In this document: one piece after another, positions 2,327 to 37,648 of the stretch
Layout: each line of letters opens with the position of its first letter
Position numbering within the stretch: position 1 is the first letter of the stretch
Virus record (IMG/VR): IMGVR_UViG_3300045974_000319
Location: 1-37,648 of that record
Reading direction: 5' to 3' (one strand)
Source of the DNA: a virus
Length of the DNA stretch: 37,648 bases
Translations under genes and position numbers: made by a program
The notes under the pieces: generated by a model
The model's input: only the letters and a program-made list of their open reading frames with translations
What the model was told of the DNA's origin: nothing
Database searches by the model: none

Positions 2327-3946
2327 ATGGCCGATCCATTCGCACCTGGCGCCCACGTTGTCGCCTATCTGCGCGATTCAGGCCATGAAGATCAGGAAGC
2401 CTCCGTCGATCAACAGGAAAGCCAGATCCGCGAGTTCTGCCTGGCCAATGGGCTTATCTTAACAACCGTATACGCCGATGCTGCCGCACCAGGTTCCTCC
2501 ACCATCGGCCGCGACCGCTTCCTGGAGATGATCCACCACTTCCGCTCTCCGGAGTGCAAAGATGCAGGCGTCATCGTCTGGAAGTTCAGCAGGTTTGCCA
2601 GGTCGATCGACGATTCGCAGTTTTACAAAGCCGATCTGCGCCGCCGTGGCTACACCATTCATTCCCTGCATGACCAGGTACCCGATGGTCTGGACGGCAG
2701 GTTTTTCGAATCGGCTGTCGACTGGATGAACGCCAGGTATCTCGAAGACATGTCTGCCGATGTCATCCGCGGGCAGCATCACCTCATTGAACAGCACGGC
2801 GCCCTGGGTGGCACCCCGCCCCGAGGCTTCACCCGCGAAGAAATCACGCTGCCGCCCCACCGTGATGGCCATCCACACATCGTCCACCGCTGGATACCCA
2901 ACCCAGACCTGGCCCCGCTCGTTCTACAGGCTTTCAGCATGCGCGCCTCCGGAGCGTCTTATGCTGCAATTAATAAGGCCACCCGCCTCTATAAATCCAC
3001 GAACTGCTACGAAACATTCTTCAAAAACCAGCTCTACATTGGCATCATGCGCTTCGGTGACAAAATCATCCTGGATTATTGCGCACCCATTGTTCCCCGT
3101 GAAATCTGGGACGCGGTCCAATCCATCCAGGCCGTCAGCAAAAAAGCCGTGTCCACCAGCGCAGATCATCCCCGTCGCAAATCAACCCCCTTCCTGCTCT
3201 CCGGCCTGGTCTTCTGTGCCCAGTGCGGCAGCAGCATGGATGCGGACCTGATCCAATTCCGCTCGACGGCCAAATATCGCTACGCCTACTACACCTGCTC
3301 AGGCCGCTCCCGCCACACCTGCAGCGCGCGCAAGGTCCCGCGTGCAATCCTCGAGAACACCATTCTCGAAACCATCGCCGAAATCATCCTTGAGCCAGCC
3401 TATCTGACTGCCCTCTACGACCACCAGGTCATCCTGCGCCGCGACCAGGCCAAGACCAACCGCGTAGAGCGCAACCGTCTCAACAGCCTCCTCACCGGCA
3501 CGCGCAAACGCATCGAGAATATCACTAACCTTCTCGCTGATATGGGCACCGCGGCACGCTCCCTGACCCCCAAACTGAAAGACCTCGAAGCCGAAGAAAC
3601 ACGCATCCTCAATAGCCTCAACGACCTCGAAAAGCCCCTCTCGCCCCTGCCATCCATCGAAGAGATCCAACAGCAAGCCACGCAACTGCGCGCTACGATC
3701 GCCCTGCTTGAAAATGCAGATCAAATCTCCACTATTCTGCACGGCCTGATCAGCAGAATCACCATCTCCCTCGACGAGGACAAGACTATCCGCGGCATCC
3801 TGGAGTATTTTGAGCCCTTAAACGCATACAGGGCATCCTATGATGCCCTGTATGGTCCTAATTTTTATGTCTATACTCAGTGCCCCGGGAGGGACTCGAC
3901 CTATAGACATAAAATTCAGCTGCCCTTCTCCACATTGGTTAAATAA
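2327..3946 (+). CDS. Large serine recombinase (phage integrase)
   Basis: A 539-aa protein. The N-terminal resolvase domain (about 10-150) carries the nucleophile region YLRDS, with Ser18 as likely catalytic serine and Arg16 beside it, and the KFSRFARS helix. A recombinase domain follows (about 160-275), then a zinc ribbon (CAQC near 300 and two later Cys), then a long coiled coil (about 375-480). Enzymes of this size integrate or excise phage DNA at attP/attB without supercoiling or host factors. It follows the methyltransferase by three bases. The last 30 or so codons overlap an attP-like inverted repeat, and the stop codon abuts the stop of the convergent lysin with no base between. Confidence 0.92.
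   Translation: MADPFAPGAHVVAYLRDSGHEDQEASVDQQESQIREFCLANGLILTTVYADAAAPGSSTIGRDRFLEMIHHFRSPECKDAGVIVWKFSRFARSIDDSQFYKADLRRRGYTIHSLHDQVPDGLDGRFFESAVDWMNARYLEDMSADVIRGQHHLIEQHGALGGTPPRGFTREEITLPPHRDGHPHIVHRWIPNPDLAPLVLQAFSMRASGASYAAINKATRLYKSTNCYETFFKNQLYIGIMRFGDKIILDYCAPIVPREIWDAVQSIQAVSKKAVSTSADHPRRKSTPFLLSGLVFCAQCGSSMDADLIQFRSTAKYRYAYYTCSGRSRHTCSARKVPRAILENTILETIAEIILEPAYLTALYDHQVILRRDQAKTNRVERNRLNSLLTGTRKRIENITNLLADMGTAARSLTPKLKDLEAEETRILNSLNDLEKPLSPLPSIEEIQQQATQLRATIALLENADQISTILHGLISRITISLDEDKTIRGILEYFEPLNAYRASYDALYGPNFYVYTQCPGRDSTYRHKIQLPFSTLVK
3863..3914. other. Candidate attP within the 3' end of the serine recombinase
   Basis: TTTTATGTCTATA (3863-3875) and its exact complement (3902-3914) form 13-bp arms around a GC-rich 26-bp core, 52 bp in all, a usual attP size for serine integrases. 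On the minus strand the core reads TCGAGTCCCTCCCGGGGCAC. That matches the 3' part of a tRNA gene: T-loop, 3' T-stem CCCTC, acceptor strand CCGGGGC and discriminator A. The 5' T-stem strand is absent, so this is not a tRNA gene. Identity blocks starting at the T-loop are typical of sites that restore a tRNA on integration. Which recombinase uses it is inferred from location. Confidence 0.6.
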
Positions 3947-32637: not shown

Positions 32638-32913
32638 TCAGGCTTGCGCTTCTCCATAATCCGGGTGGACGCGCGTGCGCCAATCTTTCCATCTCGATAG
32701 ATACTCTGGGAACTCGGTCAGCCTGCGCGCAACTCGCGCTTTCTGGTTGGGTCCGATTTCCATTACCTGGCTGTGTGCCTGGCTGCATGCCTCGCAGAGC
32801 CAGAATTGCACCATCTTTGTCTTGGTGGGTGCCTTCGGACCCACAATCGTCACCACCATTGAAAGGTGATTTTTTGCTTCCTGCCCGCACGCATCGCACT
32901 TGTAATTCGCCAT
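32638..32913 (-). CDS. Zinc-ribbon protein
   Basis: A 91-aa protein with CDAC near the start and CEAC at about residue 40, a treble-clef or zinc-ribbon pattern, followed by a basic helical tail (NQKARVARRLTEFPEYLSRW). AAAGGAAC precedes the ATG. It lies between the periodic tract A and the primase control region and may bind nucleic acid. Function unknown. Confidence 0.7.
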   Translation of the reverse strand: MANYKCDACGQEAKNHLSMVVTIVGPKAPTKTKMVQFWLCEACSQAHSQVMEIGPNQKARVARRLTEFPEYLSRWKDWRTRVHPDYGEAQA

Positions 32914-33235
32914 TTCTGTTCCTTTTCTGAATGTAACTACTCACTACATTGCCATTACCAAGCCTTACACTACAATTCGTGGCATGTCCGTTCCATCGCA
33001 CAACACTCAATTCTGTTCATCTCATTCGCGGCTCAGTTCTAAACTCTACATTTCCTTCGCGATGCTGAGCATTGCCTTGCCTCACATGACCTGGCTTTTC
33101 CGTTGCCCCATTGCGCGATTCGTTACGCCGCCATTCCTTCACATTGCATAACCGATCCGTGCTTTACTGTTGCTACCCTGCTCTGTGCAAAACCTTGCCT
33201 TCACCTCTCCGATCTACACAACTCTATTCCTTCGC
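32914..33235 (-). repeat. Non-coding tract A with ~5-nt NNNNG periodicity
   Basis: On the minus strand this entire spacer divides into units of five (sometimes six) bases ending in G. A clear run is AAAAG CCAGG TCATG TGAGG, continuing CAAGG CAATG CTCAG CATCG CGAAG (about 33051-33098). Another is TAAAG CACGG ATCGG TTATG, then CAATG TGAAG. A period of five cannot arise from codons. The units are not copies of each other. The tract fills the space between the RAMP-like gene's stop and the zinc-ribbon gene's ribosome site. No gene is supported in it. Confidence 0.75.
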
Positions 33236-33844
33236 TCAGTCCCTCGTCAGCGTGTAGCGGAAGGTCCCATAGGCGCCAGATCCGTGCCATTGACCAATTC
33301 CGCGATAGAAACCATAATCCAGCAAATCCCGCAGCACTTCTTCCGTCACCGGCCCCTCTTCCAGGATCTCTATCCCACAGGTAAAGGTCGTGCCCTCTGG
33401 CACCATCTCGCTCCTGGCCAGCGTGACTCTCGGACCCTGCATCGTCTCAGCGCGCAGCGGCCGCTCCAGGTAATCCATCTCGCCATCGGCAGGCAGCGCC
33501 AGCGGAATGATGCGCGGGCTGATGAAAACGTTGTTTTCAACCTTGCTCTTCAGGTTCTTCACGCCGCCCGCCACGCGCCCGTTCTGCACGCTCGCTGATG
33601 CCTTCAGGAAACCGAGCACCTGGTAATTGACCAGGCAGATCTGCTCGAGTTTTCCAGGCACGCGATTGAAGACGGTCGTGCCCTTCTCCAGCGCTTCGGG
33701 CAGCAGCTCGTCATCGTTCTCCGGCAGGCTTTCCAGTCCCTTGCGCTTGGCAATATGCTCGCTGGCCAGTTCTTTGTTTCCCGGTTGGCTGCCCAGGATG
33801 GGCGTCAAAAACTCCACATTCAACTTGAATCCGATCGTTTTCAT
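33236..33844 (-). CDS. RAMP-like glycine-loop phage protein
   Basis: A 202-aa protein: N-terminal strand GFKLNVEFLTPILGSQPG, a central YLERPLRAETMQGPRVTLAR, and a C-terminal DYGFYRGIGQWHGSGAYGTF. Opening with a beta strand after which a substrate-facing loop follows and ending with a G-rich loop is how RAMP (Cas5/Cas7-type) RNA-binding domains look. I recall similar proteins among phages of Clostridia but without known function. No cas genes or CRISPR arrays are in the window. Its ATG overlaps the upstream stop (ATGA). It is immediately followed by tract A. Confidence 0.65.
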   Translation of the reverse strand: MKTIGFKLNVEFLTPILGSQPGNKELASEHIAKRKGLESLPENDDELLPEALEKGTTVFNRVPGKLEQICLVNYQVLGFLKASASVQNGRVAGGVKNLKSKVENNVFISPRIIPLALPADGEMDYLERPLRAETMQGPRVTLARSEMVPEGTTFTCGIEILEEGPVTEEVLRDLLDYGFYRGIGQWHGSGAYGTFRYTLTRD

Positions 33845-35496: not shown

Positions 35497-36441
35497 TTAT
35501 TTTCCCCTCCGCAGCTTGCCCAACTCGCCCGCTTCCACCGCTTCCGCCAGGTCCTCGCGACCCGGCTGCACGTAACGCGCGGTCGTTTCCAACTTCTCGT
35601 GACCCAGGATCTTCTGCACCTCGGTCAACGGGCGGCCAGCATCCACCATGCTCTTGGCGCAGGTATGGCGCAGCACATGGCAGCCCAGATCACTGATGCC
35701 CGTCTGGCGTGCGATCTCTTCGACCCGCTTCTGGATCCCGCGCACGCTCACCCCGGCGAAGAACGTCTCTTCATTCGTGTACGTCGAGATCGCCAGCCAA
35801 TCGCTCAGTGCTGCCCTGCAGGATGCTGACAGCGGCAATGTGCGCGTCTTGTCGCATTTTCCCCGCCGCACCACCACATCCCCCTTGCGCTCGCTCATCG
35901 TCACATCCCCATGCTGCAGGTTGGCCACTTCTTCCACGCGCAGCCCGGCGAAACGCATCAGGCTCACCATGGCCAGGTCGCGTATTGCCCGCTCGCGTTG
36001 GATCGATGTCATGGCTGCATTCACGTTGATCTCCACCTGGCGCATTACCTTGCGTTCCTCGGCTGCTTCCAACCAGCGCGGCGCCTGCTCCTGCTCGCGT
36101 TCGGCCTGCAGACATTTCTCGAAGGCAATCGGCCGCATGCCCAGCGCCCGTTCGCACCAGGTGCACAGCACGCGCAGCGTCGCCCGCCGCCGGTTCCACG
36201 TTGCCGGGCTGCACTGCTCCACCTCCACGCAGCTCGTGCGGTAATCGCGCAGATCGCGCGTGTTGAGCAGCCCAGGCTCGAAAAGCGAACCGTTTGCCCG
36301 CAGCCACCAGGCACAAAAATGCTTCAGATCCGCCTGGTATGCCTTGACTGTCCCCGCGCTGCGTTCCTCACGCAGGTAAGTCTCAAACTCACCTGCCCAA
36401 TCCAACTCCACCTTCGTCTTCTCTACTGTTTGCTGTTCCAT
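35497..36441 (-). CDS. Tyrosine recombinase (Xer/phage integrase type)
   Basis: The ATG at 36441 (AAAGGG upstream) is preferred to 36465. The 314-aa protein has an N-terminal SAM-like core-binding domain (about 15-110) and a catalytic domain with Arg in FAGLRVEEV (about 168), Lys in GKCDKTRTLPL (about 195-198), His-x-x-Arg in CHVLRHTCA (about 255-258), His in LGHEKLETTARY (about 281) and Tyr (about 290). All six catalytic residues are intact. A compact Xer-like enzyme in the early operon beside a separate serine recombinase suggests dimer resolution or a second integration activity. It follows tract B directly. Confidence 0.9.
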   Translation of the reverse strand: MEQQTVEKTKVELDWAGEFETYLREERSAGTVKAYQADLKHFCAWWLRANGSLFEPGLLNTRDLRDYRTSCVEVEQCSPATWNRRRATLRVLCTWCERALGMRPIAFEKCLQAEREQEQAPRWLEAAEERKVMRQVEINVNAAMTSIQRERAIRDLAMVSLMRFAGLRVEEVANLQHGDVTMSERKGDVVVRRGKCDKTRTLPLSASCRAALSDWLAISTYTNEETFFAGVSVRGIQKRVEEIARQTGISDLGCHVLRHTCAKSMVDAGRPLTEVQKILGHEKLETTARYVQPGREDLAEAVEAGELGKLRRGK

Positions 36442-36465
36442 CGCTACCCTTTCAACTCGTTTCAT

Positions 36466-36809
36466 TGCTTCTGCGTCTCATCGCTACCATTCACGACCGC
36501 GCCATGCCTTCTCAGATCCTCACAAAACGTATCTCGACCATTCCCTCGCATGACTGGACGTTTCGTTGCTTCGCCTTGCCACCACCATGCTTCCGATGCG
36601 ATCCGTCACAATGCCCTACCCCTGCTGTGCTCACCTATTCATTTCCTTCGCTCTCAATTCTGCGCAGAGCATACGCTGCCCCTGCTATTCCGCTCGGTTC
36701 TGTCCTGTGCCTTCGCCTTGCCTTGCCCGTCCGGTCTGATCTTTTCCGTCGCGCTGCCTTGCAGGTCTGATCTGTCCTTTGCCGTCGCAGTCCATATCCT
36801 GGCCCGGCT
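36466..36809 (-). repeat. Non-coding tract B with ~5-nt NNNNG periodicity
   Basis: On the minus strand this 344-bp spacer has the same phase pattern as tract A: ATCAG ACCTG CAAGG CAGCG, followed by CGACG; and ATCAG ACCGG ACGGG CAAGG, followed by CAAGG CGAAG (about 36710-36776). It shares local similarity with tract A, for example 36538-36569 against 33075-33106, and ATTTCCTTCGC at 36641 and 33050. The tract runs from the stop of the upstream gene to the recombinase gene. Open frames on the plus strand here are by-products of the C-rich, A-poor composition. Confidence 0.75.
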
Positions 36810-37166
36810 TTACAGTCCCAGTGCTACCTTCAACAGGTTCAGTTGTTGCTCATTCCAGAAAAACTTAAAGCCTTCGCGCGTGCGCATCGAGCGCAGCCCC
36901 AGCTTCGTCACAATCCGCCCCACCCGCGCCGCGGTCACTTCTCCCCCAGTCGGCTCGGTCTTGGTCAACAGCCAGGCCAGATCCTTCATAAACATCCACC
37001 AGGCTCCGCCGTGATTGATCGCCACAGCGTATTCCGGATCCGCCAGCTTTGACTCGAGCACCAGGTGCTTCACCACCAGTTTGCTCAACACGTCCGGAGC
37101 ACTGCATACCACCGGCTCCGCTTCCAACACCTTCGCATACGTTTCCCGATCCAAAATTCCATTCAT
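36810..37166 (-). CDS. Winged-helix-like early protein
   Basis: A 118-aa protein. The C-terminal half (TGGEVTAARVGRIVTKLGLR, then SMRTREGFKFFWNEQQ) has the helix-turn-helix and wing-like order of a small winged-helix domain. The N-terminal half is helical with a Trp-rich turn (GGAWWMFMKDLAWLLTKTEP). It is the second leftward early gene, where replication or antirepression regulators are common. AAAGGAAA precedes the ATG. Function inferred only. Confidence 0.65.
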   Translation of the reverse strand: MNGILDRETYAKVLEAEPVVCSAPDVLSKLVVKHLVLESKLADPEYAVAINHGGAWWMFMKDLAWLLTKTEPTGGEVTAARVGRIVTKLGLRSMRTREGFKFFWNEQQLNLLKVALGL

Positions 37167-37202: not shown

Positions 37203-37430
37203 CTAACAGGGATTGACCGTGCTACTCTCAGCCTGTGACAACTTCACGATCTCCGCCGCCACCTCAGAACCATACGTGCGCAGGATCCGGCCCAACGTAT
37301 CGTCGGTCACCTGCCCATTTCCGCGGAGCAAGTTGTAGGCATGCTGGTACGTATAGCCGGTCACCTGTGCGAAATCCGTCGGCGAAATATTCCCCTCCTC
37401 AGCCCAGCGCCTCAAAGCCTTAGTCAACAT
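37203..37430 (-). CDS. Cro-like HTH regulator
   Basis: A 75-aa protein with a small XRE-type HTH: ISPTDFAQVTGYTYQHAYNL and RGNGQVTDDTLGRILRTYG (about 15-55). It is the first gene of the leftward operon, divergent from the repressor, with GGAGGTG upstream and a near-consensus promoter controlled by the operators. This is the position of Cro/antirepressor in lambda-like switches. It should favour lytic growth by blocking repressor synthesis. Its first 27 codons recur at 1-82 because of the contig overlap. Confidence 0.85.
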   Translation of the reverse strand: MLTKALRRWAEEGNISPTDFAQVTGYTYQHAYNLLRGNGQVTDDTLGRILRTYGSEVAAEIVKLSQAESSTVNPC

Positions 37431-37648
37431 TCACACCACCTCCCTACTAATTCCTGTGTTCATCAATTTGGTAACTTATTCATCATTATAACCACTAATA
37501 TATATTTGTCAATATATAACTAAAATTGAATTACTAAATTCATCACTCGAAGATTTATGATGAGTACACTATGCAATTTGATGAATGGCTTGATAAAGAG
37601 ATAACAAAACGTGGCTGGTCTCGAAGGGAAGCATCCAGGCGAGCCGAT
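37349..37648. repeat. Terminal direct repeat, right copy (contig overlap)
   Basis: The 300 bases match 1-301 except for one base missing in the first operator arm (CAATTTGGT at 37464-37472) and an A at 37522 in the second arm (ACTAAAATTG at 37519-37528). The leftward promoter with TTGACA and TATAAT is unchanged here. Confidence 0.9.
37571..37648 (+). CDS. Repressor, N-terminal fragment (duplicate of 224-583)
   Basis: The first 26 codons of the XRE repressor, identical to 224-301, cut by the contig edge. In the closed circle it is the same gene. Confidence 0.85.
   Translation, partial: MQFDEWLDKEITKRGWSRREASRRAD

Follow-up and report, generated by a model that had tools for sequence, protein, structure and literature searches.

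The locus and its periodic tracts

The window considered in this analysis is the whole 37,648 nt of the IMG/VR virus record IMGVR_UViG_3300045974_000319. Two tracts, termed A and B, carry a G every 5 bases on the minus strand, which is also the strand of the genes surrounding them, and the stop codon of a gene for a predicted RAMP protein marks the start of tract A. The features referred to throughout are as follows:

32911..33239, minus strand: tract A, proposed to be a guide-RNA array and immediately following the RAMP gene (HMM parse, 64 units, 10 boxes)
33236..33844, minus strand: gene for a 202-aa Cas7-like RAMP protein, the proposed Vipr (profile, model and structure matches)
36418..36823, minus strand: tract B, a further proposed guide-RNA array, lying upstream within this gene block (HMM parse, 80 units, 11 boxes)
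37485..37512, minus strand: candidate promoter of the leftward early block holding both tracts (12/12 match to the sigma-70 consensus TTGACA-16-TATAAT)

Near the initially annotated positions, the G-power of the minus strand at a period of ~5.1 was 23.6 for tract A (322 nt) and 25.9 for tract B (344 nt). On a finer grid these values rose to 30.1 and 33.0, while the maxima of 300 first-order Markov shuffles of each tract were 9.8 and 8.2. The longest chain of G at 5/6 spacing counted 24 in A and 27 in B, as compared to maxima of 18 and 22 in 500 shuffles each, and position 5 of the unit was G in 94% of the units of A and 99% of those of B. Some of the units, roughly one in six, are 6-mers that end in GG (2194 of the 13,230 units in the HMM parse of all sense tracts), and these raise the mean period from 5 to 5.1. 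The period of five in both tracts is thus confirmed, as is the statement of the initial annotation that tract A has the same NNNNG phase as tract B and that both lie on the same strand relative to transcription. A search of the window against Rfam gave no match, and neither did one of the surroundings of the tracts with values of up to E 1 admitted.

A predicted Cas7-type protein encoded beside tract A

No match to the 202-aa protein was found in Pfam, PHROG, PADLOC or NCBIfam, and a search with the single sequence gave none in viral contigs and none in plasmids. With tblastn, four human-gut phages were found (E 1e-27 to 9e-24), and an alignment of five rows yielded 145 relatives in viral contigs, of which 80 were kept, and 28 in genome contigs, mostly of Clostridia MAGs. 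As the window is itself a virus record and the relatives of the protein number 145 in viral contigs against 28 in genome contigs, the gene is carried mainly by phages and proviruses. The profile A2, with 83 members, matches Cas7 (E 1.2e-4) and Csm4 (E 1.4e-3) in the PDB over a glycine-rich loop, which is found at the end of the 202-aa protein (GIGQWHGSGAYGTF) and is conserved in the 79-row alignment A3.

While structure prediction from the one sequence was useless (pLDDT 33.8), the AlphaFold model from 79 rows reached a pLDDT of 88.6 and a pTM of 0.83. The best Foldseek matches of the model were chains of type VII and type III-A (Csm) CRISPR complexes, the top one being a type VII Cas7 (E 2.8e-8). 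VIA-align gave Z 14.3 for the Csm complex chain 6xn3_F, with 165 residues aligned at 3.3 Å, and Z 13.3 for the crystal structure of Csm3, 6ae2_B. Among viral models, the best match was a 'Cas system-associated RAMP superfamily protein' of an uncultured siphovirus (E 3.4e-18). The protein is small and presents an RRM core and a G-loop, as a RAMP protein does, and the predicted structure points to a protein of the Cas7/Csm3 type.

Association of the tracts with the RAMP gene

To consider the tracts beyond the window, we analyzed the loci that carry the RAMP gene. The HMM parse revealed a sense tract of at least 20 units in 110 of these 113 loci (the window included), and an antisense tract in 21. 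For the 112 relatives, the maximum G-power per locus had a median of 25.9 within 1.5 kb of the RAMP gene and of 7.5 further away, and C-power on the same strand in the same comparison was 9.35. G-power exceeded 15 in 105 of the 112; the remaining seven were below 11, with several of these lying at contig ends. The nearest tract was no more than 50 nt from the RAMP gene in 94 of the 103 loci with a good tract.

The association was also seen in an independent sample of 158 viral loci, which were recruited by an antirepressor-like and a RecT-like protein (names that reflect our reading of the sequences) regardless of the RAMP gene. Here, a chain of at least 30 units was present in all 3 loci with the RAMP gene and in 2 of the 155 without it. 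One of these two, L227 (minus strand, ~9045), reads as a pentapeptide-repeat gene coding for ADLxxADL, and the other, L295, presents the same 15-nt pattern. It should be noted that a G every 5 bases is also a property of pentapeptide-repeat genes, which are, as such, a false positive for scans of such tracts.

The 80 nt following 113 tracts share, by sequence comparison, only Shine-Dalgarno-like and A-rich 8-mers, each in at most 12 of the 113, and a conserved 3' tail is absent at this level. No accessory gene is universal within 4 kb, the largest cluster of neighbors, represented by an HTH protein, being found in 40 of the 113 loci.

Composition of the unit and the six-base boxes

Over all tracts, the unit reads H (C 0.57, A 0.26, T 0.15, G 0.03), N (A 0.49), N, N and G (0.94). 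This composition was taken from the first HMM, which had run-on insertion states, and it is the only result used from that HMM. As position 4 is G in only 23% of units, the unit is not a literal GGY/NN.

The initial annotation had proposed that the spacing is maintained rather than the sequence, and suggested as a check whether the phased G is conserved more than the four bases between. Since tracts A and B do not align with each other, we examined this in related sense tracts of other phages; the relatives of the window protein are distant, with 44% identity at best, and the window is therefore without a close pair that would show constraint. The sample comprised 27 pairs with 45 non-overlapping matches, and it should be considered that some pairs come from the same small phage group and are not independent. 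The phased G differed at 12 of 1118 positions, while positions 1, 2, 3 and 4 differed at 83 of 1086, 129 of 1095, 166 of 1084 and 135 of 1096, respectively, so that the proposal is supported in these relatives. Of the 25 informative pairs, all presented more variation at positions 2-3 than at position 5, while 21 did so relative to position 1 and 18 relative to position 4. From this divergence per unit position, G and H constitute the scaffold, and the other three bases are free to vary. An adjacent intergenic tract of 5-nt repeats, with a conserved scaffold and variable bases, thus accompanies the gene. A hypervariable dinucleotide at positions 2-3 (20.2% and 22.4%, with 10.2% at position 4) had also appeared but was rejected as inflated by redundant overlapping matches; once these and the antisense tracts were removed, positions 2, 3 and 4 were about equally variable.

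The 6-mers follow the consensus C-A-A-N-G-G (0.82, 0.57, 0.67, -, 0.96 and 0.99) and are succeeded by an A-rich unit. These boxes are spaced by 5-7 units in 73.2% of 1884 intervals, as compared to 20.2% when box positions are shuffled (maximum of 21.8% in 50 shuffles). In units, the spacings are 6, 6, 6, 7, 9, 6, 6, 8 and 6 in tract A, and 7, 7, 7, 6, 7, 5, 8, 7, 7 and 14 in tract B. We infer that the boxes punctuate individual guides. The initial annotation mentions neither a box every 5-7 units nor the RAMP gene beside the tract. The array of tract A runs straight into the next gene (32638-32913), and its last box (AAAAGG, minus strand; 32911-32940) lies where the Shine-Dalgarno sequence of that gene would be.

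Comparison with VIPR and other systems

Our literature search found no description of such tracts besides a 2026 preprint on VIPR (PMC13142463), from which the following statements are drawn as far as its accessible text goes. VIPR was first reported in 2026 and is thought to be older than CRISPR. In this system, a phage RAMP protein is bound to guide RNAs of 9-16 YNNGG repeats. DNA recognition relies on the NN bases, with a 1-nt skip, and competing elements are repressed by the protein. For SUSP1 and P. fulva, tracts of this kind are shown to be the guide RNAs that the RAMP protein binds. Seven types of VIPR are described, with related consensus units and staggered, overlapping arrays among them (PMC13142463).

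In SUSP1 (L114), the RAMP candidate, ALH47069, has GGT-NN tracts on its flanks; we took this gene as Vipr by these flanks and not by its name in the accessible text of PMC13142463. Profile homology to the SUSP1 protein is weak (hhalign E 3.4e-5 with probability 72, and E 1e-4 with probability 57). Phages of Gordonia, mycobacteria and Vibrio whose RAMP genes are SUSP1-like have GG[TC]NN or GCANN tracts alongside. The GCA-NN units beside the gene in Vibrio phage 1.266.O (L375, ~1330-1480 and 2092-2330) are closer to the unit of the window family than the GGT-NN of SUSP1. In Gordonia phage MakoManhole (L373, ~2604-2960) and mycobacteriophage LittleE (L374, ~1040-1480 and 2650-3010), the GGYNN tracts are succeeded by sequence resembling the T-arm and acceptor half of a tRNA (GGTTCGA...), which is possibly the tail of the guide RNA.

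As compared to VIPR type II (SUSP1 and a Pseudomonas fulva prophage), as described in the part of the preprint available to us, the window family likewise has a single-domain phage RAMP protein of ~200 aa and intergenic tracts of 5-nt tandem repeats on the same strand, with a scaffold G and variable bases, and several guides per locus (PMC13142463). The two differ, however, in the unit, which is G-H-NNN in the window family and GGY-NN in type II, the second G not being kept. They also differ in that the ~100-nt guides of type II have a structured 3' tail, whereas in the window family the arrays are continuous, a 6-nt CAANGG box recurs every 5-7 units, neither a 3' tail nor a conserved accessory gene was found, and the sequence homology of the protein is weak. 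As layout, fold and period agree, we consider this to be the same kind of system, and the best reading is that the tracts and the RAMP gene constitute a VIPR-like system, either a new variant or one of the seven types of the preprint. The predicted protein also resembles the Cas7 of class 1 CRISPR (Csm3 and type VII Cas7) in its G-loop and RAMP fold, a resemblance that extends along all of the 202-aa model, but proposed guides with 5-nt units are unlike those of CRISPR. No cas neighbors were found among the 7 proteins scanned, PADLOC giving only DndG for one protein (E 0.048), and a tandem-repeat scan of the window revealed no CRISPR repeat-spacer array.

Search for a code and targets

Possible targets were searched in 2.9 Mb of phage DNA, mostly contigs with the RAMP gene, and then in a second set of 2.3 Mb from 158 other loci, with shuffled units always serving as decoys. 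We tried 28 codes in 1.1 Mb, 20 in 2.9 Mb with 3 decoys each and 9 in the second set, together with module-bounded readings and offsets at the boxes. The published rule of two bases with a 1-nt skip yielded no excess over shuffled guides in the 2.9 Mb or the 2.3 Mb, in a search with little power for short guides.

When three contiguous bases were read per unit and a module match was defined as at most 1 mismatch over at least 18 nt, 14 modules matched in the first set, as compared to 4.35 ± 2.14 for decoys (60 decoys, none of which reached 14), although three of the 14 are doubtful (two from L031 on opposite strands and one of low complexity). In the second set, 3 modules matched against 4.7 for decoys, and when up to 2 mismatches were allowed the excess was absent from the first set as well (43 against 39.6). 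A complete module of 7 units, from locus L056, matches 21 of 21 contiguous nt at positions 5598-5618 of L039, a locus that carries the RAMP gene, and the match spans the ribosome-binding site (Shine-Dalgarno) and the start codon of a gene for 72 aa. The match was equalled in 1 of 400 decoy sets but should be considered weaker than this figure, because several codes were tried; the 21-mer occurs in one IMG/VR contig only. Within the arrays, the correlation of position 4 with the following unit is stronger for position 2 (z 10.8) than for positions 1 and 3 (z 4.9 and 3.9).

The variable positions, this correlation and the 21/21 match can be regarded as hints, not proof, of a contiguous three-base code, in which each 5-nt unit would pair with three consecutive target bases without a skip and a module from box to box (5-8 units) would be a guide for 15-24 contiguous nt. 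The disappearance in the second set of the excess of near matches seen in the first speaks against such a code, and we consider it doubtful. Two further readings gave apparent signals. Those for three bases with a skip of 2, that is, a period of five, were rejected as they look like unmasked tracts, and those for offsets at the boxes, where three settings were flagged (e.g., 7 against 1 and 0 matches of at least 20), counted overlapping seeds repeatedly.

Alternative explanations

If tracts A and B were diverged copies of one spacer or microsatellite, ordinary duplication would explain their likeness, and the 11-nt string ATTTCCTTCGC, found only at 33050 and 36641, as well as a tandem repeat of 36 nt and 2.5 copies inside part of tract B, would fit this. 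Of the short blocks that had been annotated as shared, this string is indeed present in both tracts, where it corresponds on the sense strand to the box CGAAGG and the next unit AAATG, and the longer block (33075-33106 and 36538-36569) is partly alike. Nonetheless, the best local alignment of A and B scored 26.0 while unit-shuffled B scored 26.2 ± 3.8, with 153 of 300 shuffles reaching the real score. As the real score equals that of the controls, the longer block is no evidence of common descent, the relatedness claimed beyond the unit grammar is not supported and a recent copy is already refuted. Divergence between related tracts of other phages is, moreover, far from uniform over the unit positions, unlike what the initial annotation had expected of a recent duplication. 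Tracts A and B thus share a unit grammar and not recent ancestry, and duplication is highly improbable. Even harder to credit is that the periodic G is a by-product of a protein-coding repeat (a pentapeptide with a 15-nt period), or of a decayed one. Such a pattern does occur in the 2 of 155 loci without the RAMP gene, one of them read as coding, but all three sense frames of both A and B contain stop codons (4-9 per frame), and units of 6 nt would shift the frame.

The trp RNA-binding attenuation protein (TRAP) binds NAG triplets spaced by 2-3 nt, in ~11 repeats, and needs the AG of each. The tracts would resemble TRAP sites in offering protein-binding sites about every 5 nt in RNA, and one could thus regard them as a periodic binding scaffold, of RNA or DNA, without guide function, on which the RAMP protein or a TRAP-like ring assembles via the phased G for packaging, replication or control of mRNA. 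The phased G is the conserved element, and no target was established in the searches of phage DNA, both of which agree with a scaffold of this kind, as does the similar spacing of the TRAP triplets. However, A precedes the phased G in only 34% of units, the tracts count 64 and 80 units, and a plain scaffold need not have three free positions per unit over tens to more than 100 units. The neighboring gene, moreover, encodes a protein with a predicted Cas7 fold, and phages with the same layout carry guides, according to the accessible text of PMC13142463. We therefore consider a scaffold without guide function improbable.

Proposed mechanism

Tracts A and B are, with high probability, arrays of VIPR-like guide RNAs used by the 202-aa RAMP protein against competing elements. 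Transcription of the tracts would run leftwards along with the early genes of the phage, and may start at the consensus promoter at 37512-37485. The transcript would carry tract B first, followed by the integrase and small genes, then the RAMP gene and finally tract A. The RAMP protein would coat the RNA of the tracts, each subunit covering one 5-nt unit. The phased G and the non-G base following it would be held as a scaffold, leaving the variable bases in between accessible for pairing. Pairing with the DNA of competing phages, prophages or satellites would lead to repression of their genes, and the 6-nt boxes every 5-7 units would mark the ends of individual, probably overlapping, guides. 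The binding of RNA, the pairing with DNA, the repression and the processing at boxes are put forward by analogy with the system of PMC13142463, within the extent of its accessible text, and from the predicted fold.

If true, the presence of a large VIPR-like family in gut and environmental phages would show that the guide format varies, the window family differing in its unit, in its dense box-punctuated arrays and in having no obvious tail or helper gene. Over a hundred loci are available for working out the code and the targets.

Genome context

The promoter candidate (37485-37512, minus strand) lies upstream of the first leftward early gene; it is defined only by its match to the consensus, and sigma-70 consensus sites numbered 3 as compared to 3.0 in shuffles. 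A search for relatives of the large primase-like protein of the window gave no viral relatives. The two ends of the record, 1-301 and 37349-37648, form a direct repeat of ~300 bases with 99.3% identity, and the phage genome is therefore probably circular or terminally redundant.
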